From a virus, in IMG/VR virus record IMGVR_UViG_3300048113_000191, positions 1 through 23,947 of that record: a stretch of DNA of 23,947 nt. One strand, 5' to 3'. This document shows, one piece after another, positions 481 to 21,754 of the stretch (positions within the stretch are counted from its first letter, which is position 1; each line of letters opens with the position of its first letter). The notes beneath the pieces are model-generated. The model was not told where the DNA came from and searched no databases. It saw only the letters and a program-made list of their open reading frames with translations. Position numbers and translations under genes: made by a program.

Positions 481-744
481 TTATTTAAAACTTTTTTTAA
501 TTTTTTTATTTTCGAACTCTGTCTTGTCTTTTAGGTAAGCAAGGTATAAGTAACAAGCGTGTAATGGATAACGTGATACAGGAGTGCCTATCTCTACTCC
601 GATAATTCTTTGAACTTTCTCATCAGCAAGCGCAACTGCTTCTTCGTAATTTCCCCACTTTTTAGCAAATCCTTTGACTCCTTCTCCAACTCCTCCTCCA
701 AATAGTTCGGGATAGCTTTCAGCAATCCGTTCGTTAAATTGTAA
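481..744 (-). CDS. Tail assembly chaperone, -1 frame extension (T-like domain)
   Basis: This frame lies -1 relative to the chaperone ORF at 594-1214. It is open from a stop near 830 down to TAA at 483-481 and has no ATG, GTG or TTG before its conserved part, so it can only be made by frameshifting from the upstream ORF. Its residues look like real protein: a Gly-rich linker (FGGGVGEGVKGFAKKWG), then YEEAVALADEKV, then RYPLHACYLYLAYLKDKTEF. The K-W-G start, P-L-H-x-C and L-x-Y-L-K-(D/E)-K pattern resembles small proteins I recall directly downstream of this chaperone in other Bacteroidota phages. The likely slip site is the nine-T run on the minus strand (plus 743-751). A slip there gives a fusion of about 244 residues. 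A sequencing indel in the homopolymer is the main alternative. Confidence 0.6.
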   Translation of the reverse strand, partial: LQFNERIAESYPELFGGGVGEGVKGFAKKWGNYEEAVALADEKVQRIIGVEIGTPVSRYPLHACYLYLAYLKDKTEFENKKIKKSFK

Positions 745-1214
745 AAAAAAACCGTTGCACCTAGTACAACCGATAAAGGTGCTTGTTTCATAACCTCTGA
801 ATACTTTGCAGAACCTTCGTAATCTTCAATCAGATATTTACCTCTTTGCTCGTGTATAATAGGTCGATACATTACTGCCATAGCCTTTTGTATATTGTCA
901 AAGTCATTTAGGTACGTTGTAAGGTCTTTATTCTCTCCGTAGGTAATAGCATCTAACTTTGGGATAAAACCGTATTTAACACCGTTTAAAATGAATGTAG
1001 GAGTGAATTGCTTGTCTTGTTCAAATACTGAATTTATCTGTTCTGCAAATCCCTCTATCTTGTCAGCAGGCAACATATTGAGTTCCTTCTGTGAGATGTT
1101 TAAGAACGTTGTAAGCGTTTGGTCTATCGTTGGTTCTTCTATCTTGCTAAATACTTGGTATTGCTCTAGCGTTATATCGTCAAGAGTTTCGGGGATTGTT
1201 ATTTCTATTTTCAT
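594..1214 (-). CDS. Tail assembly chaperone-like protein (G-like product)
   Basis: A 206-aa ORF starting MKIEITIPETLDDITLEQYQ, a beginning I recall from tail-region proteins of Bacteroidota phages. It has a central segment GVKYGFIPKLDAITYGE, then AMAVMYRPI and YEGSAKYSEVM, and a hydrophobic helix near residues 146-165. Its start overlaps the stop of the 76-aa gene upstream (ATGA at 1214-1211). It is followed by tail genes. Like lambda G/GT, it appears to be extended by a -1 frameshift into the frame at 481-744. The nine-T run covers codons V155-Y158. The role as chaperone of the tape measure is inferred from position and from the overlapping second frame. Confidence 0.7.
   Translation of the reverse strand: MKIEITIPETLDDITLEQYQVFSKIEEPTIDQTLTTFLNISQKELNMLPADKIEGFAEQINSVFEQDKQFTPTFILNGVKYGFIPKLDAITYGENKDLTTYLNDFDNIQKAMAVMYRPIIHEQRGKYLIEDYEGSAKYSEVMKQAPLSVVLGATVFFYNLTNGLLKAIPNYLEEELEKESKDLLKSGEITKKQLRLLMRKFKELSE
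743..751 (-). other. Nine-T homopolymer, candidate -1 frameshift site
   Basis: On the minus strand the coding sequence reads G-T9-AC, decoded as V-F-F-Y in frame 0. Repeating one T moves the ribosome into the downstream frame as V-F-F-L-Q-F. This is either a programmed slip site (ribosomal or transcriptional) or a homopolymer miscount in the assembly. Confidence 0.5.
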
Positions 1215-1923: not shown

Positions 1924-3087
1924 TTAATAAACGAAGTATTGCCCTTTGTTTGGATTTTCTAATTGCGAAGTAATTGCATAACGTGCTGCATCAATACAAT
2001 GATTAAAAGCGTCAATAGGTTTGTTTACTGTGTTACCCTCTCTGTCTTTTACCCACGTATAGGATTGCAGTTCCTTGACGAGGTTCTTGCTTGACCTTGT
2101 TACAAAGATTTTGTTCTGATTGATTAAGTTGATTCCGTACACTATTGAGTCCTTTCCTTTTGTACAAGGTAGAACTGTATGCCCGTATGTGTTTAATTCA
2201 GCTATTGATTTTGGTTCTGCTGAATCTGCGTAAACCATATCTCTTATTCCTTTTGCTTTGAATAGGTCTGATATGTCACTGTTAAGCATTTTCTTTTGGT
2301 AGATAACCTCATCGAATATATAACTATCATTGTACTTGTATAAACCTATCAATGTTGTCGGGTCGTTGCTATATCCGAAATCCATTCCGTAGCATAATAG
2401 CCTTGCTTCTTTTGGTAAATCTATTTCTTTCCAATCGGGAACACATACACCGTCCAATGAACCTACTTGACCAAGACCGTACACCTTCCACCAATTAGAC
2501 CAATACGTGCTTTCTTTTGCCTTTTCTTTTGCTGATTCTATATCTGCAACAATCGTGTCGGGTAGTGCTTCATTATCTAGGTATGTAAGTGTGATAAAGT
2601 CAGAGTCATCTTGTCCAACTACTTCGGTATGCGCCCAAAAGTTTGCAGTAGGGTTGAAGTCAATCCAAATGTCTCCGCTTGTTCTTATTGCAAGTTGATT
2701 GTAGGCTTCAAATGGCACGTTGTTAGCTTCGTTTACATACAAGACATTTCTTCTTGCACCCCGTAGCTTATCGGGTTGCTCTACGCTAAAGAACTCGATA
2801 TATGACCCGTTTGTAAATGTGTACTTTAAAGACGACCTGTTCCAATGACTGTCCCTATATCTTCCTGTCATCATCATCAGTTTAAGAAAGTCCTTAATGG
2901 CACCCCTACGCAAATGTGGTATTGATTCAGATACAACACTAACCTCTAGCATATCGTTTCTAATTGCTCTATCAATAAGTATAGGAAGAATACCGAAAGT
3001 TTTACCTGCCGACGTTCCTCCTTGAATTACTTTTTTTCTTTTTGTTAAAGCGTGTAGCTTTCTTATCGCTGTTGTTGTCTGAAACAT
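1924..3087 (-). CDS. terL: Terminase large subunit
   Basis: This is the DNA-packaging motor: an ATPase that drives DNA into the prohead and a nuclease that cuts the concatemer. The 387-aa product has a Walker A motif GGTSAGKT at residues 23-30, a Walker B-like VLYVNE at 115-120 with the catalytic Glu at 120, and an RNase H-like nuclease domain with acidic residues in MDFGYSNDP (D236), YADSAEP (D288) and DAFNHCIDAARYA (D359/D366). It is somewhat shorter than many TerL proteins but both domains look complete. Its ATG overlaps the stop of the small subunit gene (TAATG). It is unusually far from the portal gene (19553-21322). Confidence 0.95.
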   Translation of the reverse strand: MFQTTTAIRKLHALTKRKKVIQGGTSAGKTFGILPILIDRAIRNDMLEVSVVSESIPHLRRGAIKDFLKLMMMTGRYRDSHWNRSSLKYTFTNGSYIEFFSVEQPDKLRGARRNVLYVNEANNVPFEAYNQLAIRTSGDIWIDFNPTANFWAHTEVVGQDDSDFITLTYLDNEALPDTIVADIESAKEKAKESTYWSNWWKVYGLGQVGSLDGVCVPDWKEIDLPKEARLLCYGMDFGYSNDPTTLIGLYKYNDSYIFDEVIYQKKMLNSDISDLFKAKGIRDMVYADSAEPKSIAELNTYGHTVLPCTKGKDSIVYGINLINQNKIFVTRSSKNLVKELQSYTWVKDREGNTVNKPIDAFNHCIDAARYAITSQLENPNKGQYFVY

Positions 3088-5544: not shown

Positions 5545-5938
5545 TTCTTAAGTCTTTCATAATTATTTCTTTTAGTCCTGCAACCTTTAGTTTTAAAGAT
5601 TCGTTTTCTTCGGCTAGTCTTTTGTTTTCTTGTTCTACCGTTTCAAATCCCGACAGCTTACGGTCTAAATCTTTATAAAACAAATTATAATACGGTTCAT
5701 AATTTAATTCGTTTATAGTGCTGTTTAGTGAGTTTATCACAGTTGCGTGATTCTTCCCTATTGATTCGCCTATTTGATGCAATGAGTGCGTTGTGTGCTT
5801 TCTGCAAATTGAATAGTAGATACTTCTAGGATAAGTTAAATCTCTGCTTCTTCTTTTTGAATCTAGTTCTACATTGAAATAGTTTTCTATTTCTTCCTTG
5901 ATTCCTTTAAGTGTTACTTTTGTTTTTAGTGCTTCCAT
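5528..5938 (-). CDS. DnaA domain IV-like DNA-binding protein with coiled-coil tail
   Basis: The ATG at 5938 (MEALKTKVTL) is chosen over upstream codons because it avoids overlap with the previous gene and has an AACTAAAACA leader. Residues about 9-80 resemble the C-terminal DNA-binding domain of the replication initiator DnaA: a helix with YPRSIYYSICRKH, the SLHQIGESIG helix, then N-H-A-T-V, close to the DnaA signature D-H-T-T-V that contacts DnaA boxes. There is no AAA+ ATPase domain. Residues about 96-130 (EQENKRLAEENESLKLKV) form a coiled coil, suggesting a dimer. It could bind DnaA-box-like sites in phage or host DNA as a regulator. It lies among early genes next to the exonuclease. Confidence 0.7.
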   Translation of the reverse strand: MEALKTKVTLKGIKEEIENYFNVELDSKRRSRDLTYPRSIYYSICRKHTTHSLHQIGESIGKNHATVINSLNSTINELNYEPYYNLFYKDLDRKLSGFETVEQENKRLAEENESLKLKVAGLKEIIMKDLRNGTFR

Positions 5939-5955
5939 TGTTTTAGTTTTAATTA

Positions 5956-6150
5956 TTATTTGATTTTTCTTTCTGATTGTTTTATATCGTCTATTGCTTC
6001 TTTGATTCCTGCACAATGCAAATATAGTTCTTCTTCTTCATATAACAAAAGAACTTCTTCTAGTTGTTCTATATCCATTCCCTCCTTGTAGAGTTCGTGC
6101 GTATCTCTGTAAGCGTACCAAATATATTCTCTTTTTTCTTCTTCGGTCAT
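5956..6150 (-). CDS. Hypothetical 64-aa acidic helical protein
   Basis: It begins MTEEEKREYIWYAYRDTHEL and is strongly acidic, with a Glu/Leu-rich centre (QLEEVLLLYEEEELYLHC). It is predicted to be all helical. The ATG overlaps the stop of the exonuclease gene (ATGA at 6150-6147), so the two are probably co-translated. No family is recognised. Confidence 0.65.
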   Translation of the reverse strand: MTEEEKREYIWYAYRDTHELYKEGMDIEQLEEVLLLYEEEELYLHCAGIKEAIDDIKQSERKIK

Positions 6151-6851
6151 AGTGCGTTGGTTCTTAATTTTAGTAAATTATAGCAAAGTATGTACTTCTC
6201 TCTTGCCTTGCTTTTGTATATCTTTTTAAATAGTTGAAATACCTTTCTTCTAAATTGGTAAGCAGTTACACATTCTTTAAATGCTTTCTTGCAGTATGCT
6301 TTTCCGTAGCCTTTACAAAAATTAACGTTGTCAGCGGTATCTCCTACAATCATTTGCTCATAAAAGAAATACAAAGCTTCTTGTTCTGTCTGTACTCTTA
6401 TGCTTTGGTGGTTATAGTGATAATTGTAAATGGTCGCAGGGAACTGCAAATAGTCTTTATCAATAGAAACAATAATACTATTATCTTTATCTTTTGCCCA
6501 CATAGAAGCCACAAGGTCGTCGGTTTCATATCCTGCCTTATAAATTGCGTTGTATGATTCTTGTACGTATTTAGTCAGTTCGTTCAATAGAGGTGGTATA
6601 TTTGCCTTCTTTCTGTTTGCTTTGTATGTTGGTGTGAGCATCTTTCTAAAATTACCTTTAGAACCGCAGAACGTTACAACCTTGTCAATCTCGTGCGTTT
6701 CTTCTAGCTTGTTTACAATAGACATAAACACTTCATCAAACTTAAAAATAACTTCTTCAAGGTTGTCATTGAAAGGAGAATCGTCGGGATTCTCTTTTTC
6801 CTTGTAGCAGCTACTCCAAAGCAAGCTGTCAGCGTCAAATAGTACAGTCAT
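6147..6851 (-). CDS. 5'-3' exonuclease (FEN / T5 D15-like)
   Basis: A 234-aa structure-specific nuclease that would remove RNA primers and flaps during phage replication. Visible motifs are D6/D8 near the N-terminus (LFDADSL), the Lys/Arg helical arch (TYKANRKK), ETDDL (residues 109-113), IDKDYLQ (130-136) and GDTADN (170-175). Together these are the metal-binding aspartates of the PIN/FEN fold. The helix-hairpin-helix after GDTADN is weak (CKGYGKAYCKKAF). It is the first gene after a promoter (6872-6902) and a terminator, so it starts a new transcript. The stop overlaps the start of the next ORF. Confidence 0.92.
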   Translation of the reverse strand: MTVLFDADSLLWSSCYKEKENPDDSPFNDNLEEVIFKFDEVFMSIVNKLEETHEIDKVVTFCGSKGNFRKMLTPTYKANRKKANIPPLLNELTKYVQESYNAIYKAGYETDDLVASMWAKDKDNSIIVSIDKDYLQFPATIYNYHYNHQSIRVQTEQEALYFFYEQMIVGDTADNVNFCKGYGKAYCKKAFKECVTAYQFRRKVFQLFKKIYKSKAREKYILCYNLLKLRTNAL

Positions 6852-6871
6852 AGTGTTTAGTTTTATACTTG

Positions 6872-6902
6872 CAAATATATAAACTATTGTTGAATAAAAA
6901 AA
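6872..6902 (-). promoter_or_regulatory. Promoter for the exonuclease operon
   Basis: Minus strand: the -7 box TATATTTG at 6879-6872 matches consensus. The -33 position 19 bases upstream (6902-6899) reads TTTT instead of TTTG. It lies between a terminator and the exonuclease ATG, where a promoter is expected. Confidence 0.65.
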
Positions 6903-6910
6903 ATAAAAAA

Positions 6911-6929
6911 GGGAATTTTTTACAATCCC
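6911..6929 (-). terminator. Rho-independent terminator after the metallophosphoesterase gene
   Basis: Minus strand: GGGATT and AATTCCC form a short stem (one bulged T) and the sequence runs on into six T. It begins nine bases past the stop of the metallophosphoesterase gene and ends the long recombination/replication transcript. Confidence 0.7.
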
Positions 6930-6937
6930 CCTTCACT

Positions 6938-7651
6938 TTACAACTCCATTAATTCATTCACAACAGTTTTCCCACCCATTACAACAGCACAACCTATCGC
7001 AGGCTTCTTTCCTCTTTTAGCATAAGCAAAAGCGTATTTGTCAAAATCAATTCCACAACCTACTTGCGTTGCGAATACTTTAAAGTTAGCACCTACAAAA
7101 AATTCAGTGTAGCATTGCGTATGTAGATGTCCCTGTACTGTGTTCATCATATCAGCCTTCGCTTTGGTTCTCGCAGTTCCTGCTTCTCCGTGTATGTATT
7201 GAACTTCATCAATTACAACCCTGTCTGTAAAGTTCCATTTAGGTACGTTTAAAACCTCGTTGAATGACTTTATCCAAGCCTTTGGGACTCCTGCACTAAA
7301 CGCTTTCCTTGAGATGATTCTATCGTGGTTTCCGATAAGTACATCAGCATTTGGAAATATCTTATACCAACGACTTAAACGTTCGATAGCAAACTCTAAC
7401 TCTTCTCCTGCACCCATACCATCGGGGTCGCTTTCGTGGTAGCTTGAGTAATGTGAATCAATAACATCGCCAATAAACACAACTCTATTGCAGTTATACT
7501 TTGCATACACCTCTGCGCAATGGTTAAGGTATTCGTCCAAGCTAAATGGTTCGTGAAGGTCTCCAATCACTAAAACTCTTGTTTCTTTCTTTGTAAGGTT
7601 CTCAAATGCTTTGAGTTTATTACCTCTTAATCTTGGTCTAAAATCTTTCAT
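6938..7651 (-). CDS. Calcineurin-like metallophosphoesterase
   Basis: The 237-aa product carries the motif set of the two-metal phosphoesterase family: IGDLHEP (D31, H33), FIGDVIDSH (D62), IGNHDR (N108, H109), YIHGEA, and GHLHT near residue 170. Phage members are hydrolases of nucleic acids, nucleotides or phosphoproteins; the substrate cannot be told from the sequence. It is the last gene of the long early transcript, overlaps the nuclease-like gene upstream by 14 bases, and is followed by a terminator. The neighbours suggest a role in DNA or nucleotide processing. Confidence 0.9.
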   Translation of the reverse strand: MKDFRPRLRGNKLKAFENLTKKETRVLVIGDLHEPFSLDEYLNHCAEVYAKYNCNRVVFIGDVIDSHYSSYHESDPDGMGAGEELEFAIERLSRWYKIFPNADVLIGNHDRIISRKAFSAGVPKAWIKSFNEVLNVPKWNFTDRVVIDEVQYIHGEAGTARTKAKADMMNTVQGHLHTQCYTEFFVGANFKVFATQVGCGIDFDKYAFAYAKRGKKPAIGCAVVMGGKTVVNELMEL

Positions 7652-8455: not shown

Positions 8456-8905
8456 TTATAAATTTTTTAGTATTTCTATGTTAGCTAAATAAACAGGACT
8501 ATTGTGGGTTTGCTTTACTTTTTTCTCTAACTCTTCAGGAGTTCCCCAAAAACAATCTGCTTTTATCATCCATTGCTTGTCGTGTTTTACACAATGAACA
8601 ATTCTTTTAGAAGTGTCATATGCTATGAATGAATAATAATTTTCAGCACATATTAAATTAACACCTCTTAAATCAGCACGTATTAAATTAACACCTCTTA
8701 AATCAGCACCCCTTAAATAAGCACCTCTTAAACAAGCACCTCTTAAATCAGCATCTATTAAATAAGCAGCGCTTAAATCAGTACCTCCTAAATCAGCACC
8801 TCTTAAATCAGCATCTATTAAATAAGCAGCGCTTAAATCAATACCTATTAAATCCTCTTCGTTGGTTTCTAAAAGAACTTCTCCTTTTTTGTTTTTTATT
8901 TCCAT
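8456..8905 (-). CDS. Pentapeptide-repeat protein with extra C-terminal domain
   Basis: Residues about 17-86 are tandem A-(D/N)-L-x-x pentapeptides (DLSAAYLIDADLRGADLGGT and on), which fold as a right-handed quadrilateral beta-helix that can mimic DNA. Known members include gyrase-protecting proteins, but many have no known role. A separate C-terminal domain (about 90-149) contains IVHCVKHDKQWMIKADCFWG, a strand-turn element I recall after pentapeptide repeats in phages and plasmids. The repeats are mirrored in the DNA as near-identical 15-bp units with recent tandem duplications (8647-8856). It lies two bases after the coiled-coil ORF at 8908-9063. Confidence 0.88.
   Translation of the reverse strand: MEIKNKKGEVLLETNEEDLIGIDLSAAYLIDADLRGADLGGTDLSAAYLIDADLRGACLRGAYLRGADLRGVNLIRADLRGVNLICAENYYSFIAYDTSKRIVHCVKHDKQWMIKADCFWGTPEELEKKVKQTHNSPVYLANIEILKNL
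8647..8856 (-). repeat. Tandem 15-bp minisatellite inside the pentapeptide gene
   Basis: There are fourteen successive 15-bp units, most close to CACCTCTTAAATCAG on the plus strand, each encoding one pentapeptide. Two higher-order copies are visible. A 30-bp block is repeated (8647-8676 and 8677-8706) with one difference, and a 60-bp block is repeated (8737-8796 and 8797-8856) with five differences, the first 44 bases identical. Confidence 0.9.
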
Positions 8906-13504: not shown

Positions 13505-13536
13505 CAAATATATGTAATTATATTGATAAAGTCAAA
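13505..13536 (-). promoter_or_regulatory. Bacteroidota-type promoter for the recombination/replication operon
   Basis: Minus strand: TTTG (13536-13533), 20 bases, TATATTTG (13512-13505). Both boxes match the consensus. It lies between the small early genes and the ERF ATG at 13478 and should drive the transcript down to the terminator at 6911-6929. Confidence 0.82.
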
Positions 13537-19044: not shown

Positions 19045-19553
19045 AGTACCCAACTTCCAAAATTACCGTCGCCACTAGGAGAAACATCTTCGTCGGAGTT
19101 GCTTAAATACTCGGGAAACAAAGTTGTGTTATTACATACGTAATCAATGAATCTACGTGTGTAGTTTTGTGCTGTGGTTCTTGCTTTTTCGATTAAGAAA
19201 TCAACCTCATCTTTTACAACCGTTTCGCTTGTTTCAGAAGTGTGTTTGTAAACACCTCCGTTTGCAATCGTATAAGCTGCAAAAGGATAGTACTCAACAA
19301 GTCCCCAATGGATAAGCATAGGCTTAACGTACTTAATCAATAGATTTTTATAGTTAGCATTTGCAGGGTCGTCAATAGTTCCGCCCGAAATCTTTGTTTG
19401 AATAGCCACAAGTAAGTCAGTTCCCAAATATTGCTGAATATGTATATCCTGCGCAATTCTTAAATATTGAATGAATTTACCAACGTCCACATTACCGTCT
19501 ATGGTGCTGTTTCTTTTGATGTCTGTCGTTGTAATTAATAATACTTCTGCCAT
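19041..19553 (-). CDS. Head-tail connector / adaptor protein (DUF6712-like)
   Basis: The 170-aa product begins MAEVLLITTTDIKRNSTIDG and has the helical pattern of gp6-like head-tail adaptors: KFIQYLRIAQDIHIQQYLGT, LLIKYVKPMLIHWGLVEYYP, then a strand-turn (NGGVYKHTSETSETV) and a long helix (EVDFLIEKARTTAQNYTRRF). This arrangement matches the DUF6712-type proteins encoded after the portal in Bacteroidota phages. It would sit under the portal and join the tail. Its start overlaps the portal stop (TAATG). Confidence 0.82.
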   Translation of the reverse strand: MAEVLLITTTDIKRNSTIDGNVDVGKFIQYLRIAQDIHIQQYLGTDLLVAIQTKISGGTIDDPANANYKNLLIKYVKPMLIHWGLVEYYPFAAYTIANGGVYKHTSETSETVVKDEVDFLIEKARTTAQNYTRRFIDYVCNNTTLFPEYLSNSDEDVSPSGDGNFGSWVL

Positions 19554-21322
19554 TATTTAAATCTTTTATTTGTTGGTAGAAATCCATTGTAAGGCATATC
19601 TTTCGGCTTCATTGCAACCTGTTTTGGGTTTCTTACTCTGTAACCTTCTCGTTCTGCCTTGTTCGTTGAAACCGTTGGTGCTAAAGGACTTTTTACGTCT
19701 ATCTTTGTTTTGCTCTTATACGTTCTTCGTTCCCATTTATGATGGCAGTTTCCTCCGCCTTTGTACAGCCAAATTGAGTATTTATCAGCACCATTTGCAC
19801 CCCAACCTTTATTAACAACTTTATCTGACATCGCAATAATATCTTCTTTTCGATATATCTTCTTGGCACTCATCATTTTTTTGCAAAATCCTCTTTGTGG
19901 GTTTGGGTTTCCTGTGTATTGATATCTAACTTTGTATTTAACGTCATCGATTTCTTTGTCTTGTTCACTCTTTGCGTTTGGTCTTGCTGTTCCTGTGCTT
20001 ACAAAGTTGTATATTTTAGAAAGTAGCGACTTTTTAGGATTGTTCAATGCATTTATTTCTGCGTCTAGTTGTTCCTCTATATCGTAATCAACTTCTCTTT
20101 TATCTATCAATTCCCATTCATCAAGGTTTTCATCTTCTCCCAAGCTAGTAGGGTCAAAGTCTGCGCTCATTTTAACGCCTGTCTCCTCCTCTTTTGTTTC
20201 TTCATCGGCTACATTGTCCAAGTCTGTAAATTCAAGCGGCTGAATAGTCTTAAAATAAGTATTTAAAGATATTCCGTTTACTGCTAAAATCTCGTTTATA
20301 ACGTCAAGCAATTCATCTTGAAACGTTCTAATGACTAGATTGTCATATAACAAAGAAGCAGTTTTGATTTCGTCAGCGTTGTTGCCTAATCCGTTCCCCC
20401 CTGTTCTTATTCCTAACAACATTGGAGAAGTAACTTTATGCCCTACAATTAATTTTTCTTGGCATTCTTTTGAAAGGTATTCGTAATGCTGTGGCGCATC
20501 GTTCAAAGGTAAATCTTCAACCGTAGTAGCGCCTTCTTTGTTGTTGTTAAATGCAACGATTACTTTTTCTCCTCTTGCCCCTGTAAGTTTGTTCATTACA
20601 TCACGCTTAATCTCTCTGCGTTTTTCTTCGTCGGGAACTCCGTTGTTGAAGTTGATTACTTTCGTACCACTGAACCCGTTTAAAGTGTCGTTAATTAAGT
20701 AGTCAGCAATTTCTTCTTCTAGTACTGCGTAAGGTAAAGCACCTTGATAGTCAACAGGTGGATAATAAGAATATCCTGCAACGTATGGTTTTACTACATA
20801 GATTTCGTTTTCTTTTCCGTTTCCAAAACCAAAAGCAGGAATACGTAAAGGCTCATCAGAAGGCTTCGCATCAATCCAATTCGGGTGATAGTACCACGCT
20901 TCAATCTCTCCGTCATCATTGCATCTTTCTGCCCGCAAAGTATTCATAGGAAAATGTAGAGCCTTATTGACTTGCCCACCTTTGTAGTTGATTTGAAAAG
21001 CACCCATTCCCAAAAGTTTCCTGTCCATTATAACACCACGCAAACAGTCTTTTGAAAAGATAGTTTTCATTTGTGCATATTGTTCGGGTTTCTTGTTTGA
21101 ATCCGTAGCATCTAAACCTTTTCCGTAAATCATTCGAGCCATTGAGGTAATAATACCCCCGTTCGTTGTTGATTTCGTGCTTCTGTCGATTAGCCATTGG
21201 AAATGATTGTTATCTTCTCCGTACATTATCCAATCCTTGTTTTTTACTTCTTCAACTATTGGAGTGGTGTATTTTGAAAGAGCTACAACCTCAATCTGCG
21301 ATTTGTTGTTTCTTCTACTCAT
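19553..21322 (-). CDS. Portal protein with Cys/His-rich C-terminal domain
   Basis: The 589-aa product has a portal-like first 400 residues: EVKNKDWIMYGEDNNHFQWL, IITSMARMIYGKGL, a strand-rich core, and NKEGATTVEDLPLNDAPQHY followed by VTSPMLLGIRTGGNGLGNNA, which fits the portal stem/clip region. An acidic linker (about 400-450) leads to an extra domain (about 480-545): NPNPQRGFCKKMMSAKKIYR, then YSIWLYKGGGNCHHKWERRT. This resembles a module I recall at the end of structural proteins in Bacteroidota phages and is reminiscent of the Cys/His motif of MuF-type minor head proteins. The gene overlaps the upstream small virion gene by 8 bases. Unusually it lies after, not before, the capsid gene. 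Confidence 0.82.
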   Translation of the reverse strand: MSRRNNKSQIEVVALSKYTTPIVEEVKNKDWIMYGEDNNHFQWLIDRSTKSTTNGGIITSMARMIYGKGLDATDSNKKPEQYAQMKTIFSKDCLRGVIMDRKLLGMGAFQINYKGGQVNKALHFPMNTLRAERCNDDGEIEAWYYHPNWIDAKPSDEPLRIPAFGFGNGKENEIYVVKPYVAGYSYYPPVDYQGALPYAVLEEEIADYLINDTLNGFSGTKVINFNNGVPDEEKRREIKRDVMNKLTGARGEKVIVAFNNNKEGATTVEDLPLNDAPQHYEYLSKECQEKLIVGHKVTSPMLLGIRTGGNGLGNNADEIKTASLLYDNLVIRTFQDELLDVINEILAVNGISLNTYFKTIQPLEFTDLDNVADEETKEEETGVKMSADFDPTSLGEDENLDEWELIDKREVDYDIEEQLDAEINALNNPKKSLLSKIYNFVSTGTARPNAKSEQDKEIDDVKYKVRYQYTGNPNPQRGFCKKMMSAKKIYRKEDIIAMSDKVVNKGWGANGADKYSIWLYKGGGNCHHKWERRTYKSKTKIDVKSPLAPTVSTNKAEREGYRVRNPKQVAMKPKDMPYNGFLPTNKRFK

Positions 21323-21723: not shown

Positions 21724-21754
21724 TTTGGTACATTTAAAAAAGCGTGTATCTTTG
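21724..21754 (+). promoter_or_regulatory. Bacteroidota-type promoter for the only plus-strand gene
   Basis: TTTG (21724-21727), 19 bases, TATCTTTG (21747-21754), a full match to the consensus. A long A-rich tract lies upstream. The 25 bases starting GTGTATCTTTGTATC are identical to those of the minus-strand promoter at 1866-1895. The ATG follows 30 bases downstream after an AACTAAAACT leader. Confidence 0.9.

Follow-up and report, generated by a model that had tools for sequence, protein, structure and literature searches.

A programmed slip at an obligatory T9 run in a candidate tail-assembly chaperone gene of Bacteroidota phages, possibly through RNA polymerase slippage

The pairs G/GT of phage lambda and gp13/14 of HK97 each share an N terminus, the longer product arises by a −1 shift, and both the 0 frame and the extension are conserved. 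Lambda slips at GGGAAAG, and its G gene lies between the genes for the tail tube and the tape measure. In P2, according to Christie et al. (2002) as cited in PMC3931495, a −1 frameshift on a T run in tail gene E yields a short protein, E, and a C-terminally extended one, E+E'. T-run frameshifts in tail genes are already known from P2-like phages (PMC3931495). P2-family sites are T6G or T7G in register T TTT TTG, with GGGAAAG in one relative, and none of the 11 annotated P2-like phages that served as our control (a scan of IMG/VR with P2 gpE gave only near-identical copies) had a run above T7. The E gene of P2 abuts the tape-measure gene. In Thermus dnaX, IS elements and Shigella mxiE, overlapping open reading frames are fused by one extra base at a run of at least nine of one base, of conserved length (PMC1088944, PMC5009743). 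These are bacterial or IS genes, and no phage structural gene is among the examples in those two papers. The published criterion for transcriptional slippage is a run of nine A or T whose length is conserved in homologues (PMC1088944).

The stretch of DNA analysed here (the window) is 23,947 nucleotides long and comprises positions 1 to 23,947 of IMG/VR record IMGVR_UViG_3300048113_000191. On its minus strand, an open reading frame at 594 to 1214 translates to a G-like 0-frame product of 206 aa. The slip site is a run of nine T's at 743 to 751, which is A9 at exactly these positions of the plus strand. The 0 frame reads GTT TTT TTT TAC (V-F-F-Y, residues V155, F156, F157 and Y158), with the run ending at the first base of TAC; after a −1 slip it reads V-F-F-L-Q-F. 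A preliminary description of the window had placed the divergence of the two frames at this run, and our reading agrees. From the run onward the −1 frame is open for 89 codons on the minus strand, 484 to 750 (FFLQFNERIAESYPELFGGGVGEGVKGFAKKWGNYEEAV..., with FFLQFNERIAESYPELFG...FAKKWGNYEEAV... in this T-like extension), and its stop codon is at 481 to 483. Between its upstream stop and its conserved part the −1 frame of the window gene contains no ATG, GTG or TTG, as had been claimed. The third (+1) frame meets an early stop in ACA ATT TAA after T9 (minus strand, 733 to 742). Most copies would be the 206-aa protein, and a minority, shifted −1 at T9, would carry residues 1 to 157 fused to a helical domain of 87 aa (LQFNERIAE...). 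AlphaFold models the 0-frame product (pLDDT 86) as mixed alpha/beta with a long helix at its end, residues 147 to 179, predicted to contain the slip site; the extension modelled alone (pLDDT 82) is all-helical and begins with a helix. The two models suggest that both products can continue the same helix across the slip site.

Relatives were collected in four scans of viral contigs, with the 0-frame protein or its alignments, and one scan of genome contigs, to which Nonlabens phage P12024S was added. The yield was 308 genes, 288 of them distinct and 287 covering the slip site (the window gene counted), and these 287 form 154, 90 and 24 clusters at 90, 70 and 50% identity. Because scans 3 to 5 were seeded with peptides that leave out the FF site, the search did not select for the T run. 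All 287 genes keep the run, far beyond what chance would give; its length is nine in 279 and ten in eight, never shorter, and the conservation of at least nine T's reaches relatives at 27% identity, including the cultured P12024S. The preliminary description had made its reading depend on conservation of the −1 frame in relatives, and an extension of 80 to 99 codons is present in all 272 genes with at least 330 nt of downstream sequence. The 0 frame of the relatives continues 25 to 88 codons past the slip site. In P12024S (JQ823122; our locus L089, 3444 to 3692) gene 38 carries the −1 extension, which is unannotated in the record. The same record annotates gene 39 as a separate 55-aa ORF. A sample of 395 Bacteroidota genomes held no copy besides one on a MAG contig.

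Both the 206-aa frame and the −1 frame behave as real protein, as had been supposed, with purifying selection in each among the 287 relatives. Substitutions were counted in 91 disjoint pairs of close relatives. Upstream of T9, 63 to 81% of them (about 70%) fall at codon position 3 of the 0 frame; beyond T9 they shift to position 3 of the −1 frame, up to 74% once the 0 frame has mostly ended. The pN/pS values for frames 0 and −1 are 0.13 and 2.3 upstream of T9, 0.44 and 0.63 at nt 12 to 75 after the V codon, 0.81 and 0.25 at nt 75 to 135, and 1.2 and 0.10 at nt 180 to 240, beyond the 0-frame end. By this profile, constraint on the 0-frame tail lasts for about 20 codons past the slip, and on the extension it holds over the whole length. 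Upstream of the V codon, the closest −1 stop can be a single codon away, and for 20 of 271 genes the distance is 3 codons or fewer; the slip thus has to occur at the T run or later. A later slip at an A run (A5) near 661 had also been suggested, but only close relatives have that run, and conservation of the −1 frame already covers the part from T9 to the A run (LQFN.RI.E.YPELFG). The slip must therefore happen at T9, and the A run was rejected as a site. On this comparative evidence, the gene is almost certainly programmed to give two products from T9.

The run is also constrained at the nucleotide level. In the 90 clusters at 70% identity, the first codon of the run always has T as its third base, whereas elsewhere in the genes GTT makes up 39% of Val codons and CTT 18% of Leu codons. 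F156 is TTT in 90 of 90 clusters, and F157 is TTT in 88 of 90 compared with 76% elsewhere (P about 1e-8 for the 88 of 90, only indicative because clusters share descent). A C in place of the last T of the second TTT would be silent in both reading frames, giving Phe TTC and Leu CTA or CTG, and the canonical heptamer U_UUU_UUC would be preserved. A TTC variant at the slip site was found only in genes with T10 just upstream, and we read the constraint as a demand for an uninterrupted run of about nine T's. In the eight T10 genes the extra T comes from a neighbouring codon (for example V to F or Y to F). Three of these genes (L275, L276 and L299) have TTC or TTG before Y, with T10 just upstream (GTT or CTT TTT TTT TTC/TTG TAC). 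The choice of amino acids may account for the first and last T's of the run (V, L, I or F before; Y, W, C, S or F after, and Leu in the −1 frame), so that only seven T's are strictly beyond protein constraint. The third frame is closed within 3 codons in 280 of the 287 genes (background 29%), as it is in the window; this could follow from conserved N, K or R in the −1 frame.

On this sequence evidence we lean slightly toward a transcriptional rather than a ribosomal slip at T9. RNA polymerase would slip on T9 and add one U, T10 in the mRNA would bring both frames into register, and normal ribosomes would then translate the altered mRNA. This mechanism is favoured because the run stays uninterrupted at nine T's or more even where the silent T-to-C change would leave U_UUU_UUC, and because no 3' RNA structure, which for a stimulated ribosomal frameshift would lie 5 to 9 nt downstream, was found in 50-nt windows of 90 genes (mean z about 0 ± 0.1 in a pseudoknot-free folding model). 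The contrast with the P2 family points the same way, since the P2 sites are T6G, T7G or GGGAAAG, whereas the run here is T9 to T10 with T as the last base (Z) of the heptamer. The 279 T9 and 8 T10 genes also show the conserved run of nine described for transcriptional slippage. In E. coli, slippage of RNA polymerase occurs on poly(T) once the run reaches 7 and is biased to poly(T) (PMC6260861), while U_UUU_UUU is a poor ribosomal slip site in that species (PMC5009743). Finally, the third frame, which mRNAs with T8 or T11 would enter, is the one closed early in 280 of 287 genes.

A ribosomal −1 frameshift is the strongest competitor, a credible reading about which we are nonetheless doubtful. 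In this alternative, tandem tRNA-Phe would slip at U_UUU_UUU, no stimulator would be needed where only a few percent of fusion is wanted, and the outer two T's would be coincidental to the amino acids. An X_XXY_YYZ heptamer, U_UUU_UUU, is indeed in register in nearly all genes and one codon further upstream in three exceptions, and P2-like tail genes shift on T6G or T7G (PMC3931495). Lambda-type systems need only a few percent, about 1 GT per 30 G (PMC5009743). The outer T's are explicable by amino acids, and a tRNA-Phe preference could explain the missing UUC. However, none of the 287 genes combines C, A or G at Z with a run shorter than nine, though TTC makes up 24% of Phe codons, and the absent 3' structure again counts against a ribosomal slip. 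Across the 24 clusters below 50% identity the heptamer type stays the same; in the P2 family it varies. In other genes of these phages, in-frame T7 is avoided no more than T7 in other registers (27 observed versus 40.8 expected in frame; 14 versus 48.5 in the other registers), which suggests that the heptamer alone is tolerated. Long T runs are avoided in those genes in all registers, a pattern that fits replication errors as well and cannot separate transcription from replication slippage. Both slip mechanisms may act together; a transcriptional slip adding one U and a ribosomal −1 slip would yield an identical fusion.

The preliminary description had assigned the gene to tail chaperones that work in the way of lambda G/GT. 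The part concerning two products from a −1 shift held up, but homology to gpG or gp13 was not found, and the role is inferred from architecture and neighbourhood. By its architecture the gene appears to work like a G/GT pair, of which its membership is likewise inferred, and a role in tail assembly as a chaperone, lambda G/GT-like or P2 E/E'-like, is probable. The short form would coat the tape-measure protein and the long form would bring in the tail-tube protein, as for gpG/gpGT and gpE/gpE+E'. The gene lies between terminase and tape measure: the terminase large subunit (minus strand, 1924 to 3087) is its upstream neighbour, small ORFs come next, and a promoter motif search placed a Bacteroidota-type promoter (TTTG-N-TATCTTTG; minus strand, 1866 to 1895) upstream of these ORFs and the slip gene. 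Downstream, in relatives and in the P12024S gene order, are neck/tail-completion-like genes, two tail genes and a 616-aa tape-measure-like gene about 5 kb on, the tape-measure and neck names being given from sequence appearance and gene order without a family match. In relative G001 the slip gene and the 616-aa gene (5666 to 7516 of locus L171) are separated by four larger genes (about 5 kb) and are not adjacent. The position thus differs from that of lambda G, the gene here being next to terminase, and from that of P2 E, since the slip gene does not abut the tape-measure gene; no sequence relation to P2 E/E' was found.

It is unlikely that the slip is real but the protein has a role other than that of a tail chaperone, say in the neck or in packaging, a reading compatible with either slip mechanism. 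Its place beside terminase and neck-like genes, some 5 kb before the tape measure, would suit such a function. The PHROG function is unknown, and alignment by hhalign with single sequences of lambda gpG and HK97 gp13 gave probabilities of 0.2 and 0.1, no match, for families that are often not alignable. Against this reading, a two-product −1 gene in the morphogenesis block of a tailed phage is characteristically a tail chaperone, and beside the tape measure no further candidate appeared. A fold search of BFVD returned many uncharacterised phage proteins and P12024S gene 38, and its best annotated chaperone, a weak match (E 0.076, probability 0.89), may also speak for the chaperone role. Foldseek searches of the PDB with both models gave nothing usable, an absence that proves nothing; PDB searches by sequence gave no match for the 0-frame product and a single one (E = 0.29) for the extension. 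Pfam had no family for the window protein, and among relatives its weak matches were scattered and limited to single members. All 81 members tested match phrog_32199 with the 0-frame product, and 17 of 88 extensions match phrog_38404; these are separate PHROGs families without a function, and their link is unrecorded there. Matches of 12 members to phrog_166, 'tail protein' (best E 4e-4), were absent in a second set of ten members and were set aside.

It is very improbable that the −1 frame is an independent gene that begins at a start codon of its own. Some ATG, GTG or TTG precedes the conserved part in 97 of 287 genes, and PHROGs lists the extension as its own family, phrog_38404. However, the other 190, the window gene among them, have no such start and ATG occurs in only four, so an internal start was rejected for most genes; moreover, the close −1 stops before the T run in 20 of 271 genes, and a −1-frame conservation that starts at the run, argue against it. 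Although errors are frequent at homopolymers and the record is a contig from a metagenome, the idea that the gene is truly continuous and that the break reflects faulty sequencing or assembly, or gene decay, can be dismissed. The break is common to 287 distinct genes, which come from many metagenomes and one cultured phage, purifying selection acts on both frames after T9, and none of the 287 is the continuous gene with ten T's that had been raised as a possibility, the T10 relatives keeping their frames out of register.

A T-run slip had been described beforehand as unusual. As such it is not, given the P2 E/E' tail genes with T6G; what is new is that T9 to T10 is obligatory, that a large lineage of Bacteroidota phages conserves it, that two orphan families are connected, and that a concrete case for transcriptional slippage in a phage structural gene can be made from sequence. 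A search of literature available without subscription found no paper describing the T9 slip gene. Compared with dnaX, the IS elements and mxiE, which it resembles in its conserved run and overlapping frames, transcriptional slippage here is a prediction. We tentatively propose that a large lineage of Bacteroidota tailed phages may set the ratio of two chaperones by RNA polymerase slippage on an obligatory T9 to T10 run, that is, in transcription and not by ribosomal frameshifting as elsewhere. If RNA polymerase does slip, the ratio in tail assembly would be tied to the transcription machinery, and recoding of a tail gene would have switched molecular level with its outcome kept. The finding unites phrog_32199 and phrog_38404, both unannotated, as parts of a single gene in hundreds of uncultured phages, and annotation tools gain an unambiguous rule, to join at T9. 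The cultured pair of P12024S and Persicivirga sp. IMCC12024 makes the mechanism testable.

Promoters of the Bacteroidota type (TTTG-N18-22-TAnnTTTG) number 11 in the window against 1.9 expected, and the sites include 449 to 479 and 13505 to 13536 on the minus strand and 21724 to 21754 on the plus strand, besides the one upstream of the slip gene. Together with the isolate P12024S these TTTG-N-TAnnTTTG promoters support the earlier assignment to a Bacteroidota phage, and they suggest that the regions before and after the slip gene are transcribed as separate units.

T9 runs at F-F sites also occur, at varying places, in the downstream tail-completion-like gene of five relatives (L036, 4184 to 4736; L057, 4184 to 4712; L078, 4184 to 4736; L101, 2475 to 3015; L215, 2700 to 3231). 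They are probably incidental but are possible further slip sites. In Flavobacterium phage 6H (NC_021867; L336, 10048 to 10927) a distant fold relative, probably gp10, is followed by an unannotated 300-nt gap. It was left aside because its frames near the C terminus look inconsistent, whether from frameshifting or from errors in the sequence. Elsewhere on the minus strand of the window, 8456 to 8905 encodes a protein of pentapeptide repeats (A-D-L-R-G), a fold class to which some DNA mimics belong, and 19553 to 21322 encodes a portal-like protein whose position matches the annotated portal of P12024S. The portal-like protein has an extra C-terminal region (YSIWLYKGGGNCHHKWERRTYK), which is also found in relatives L171 and L174.
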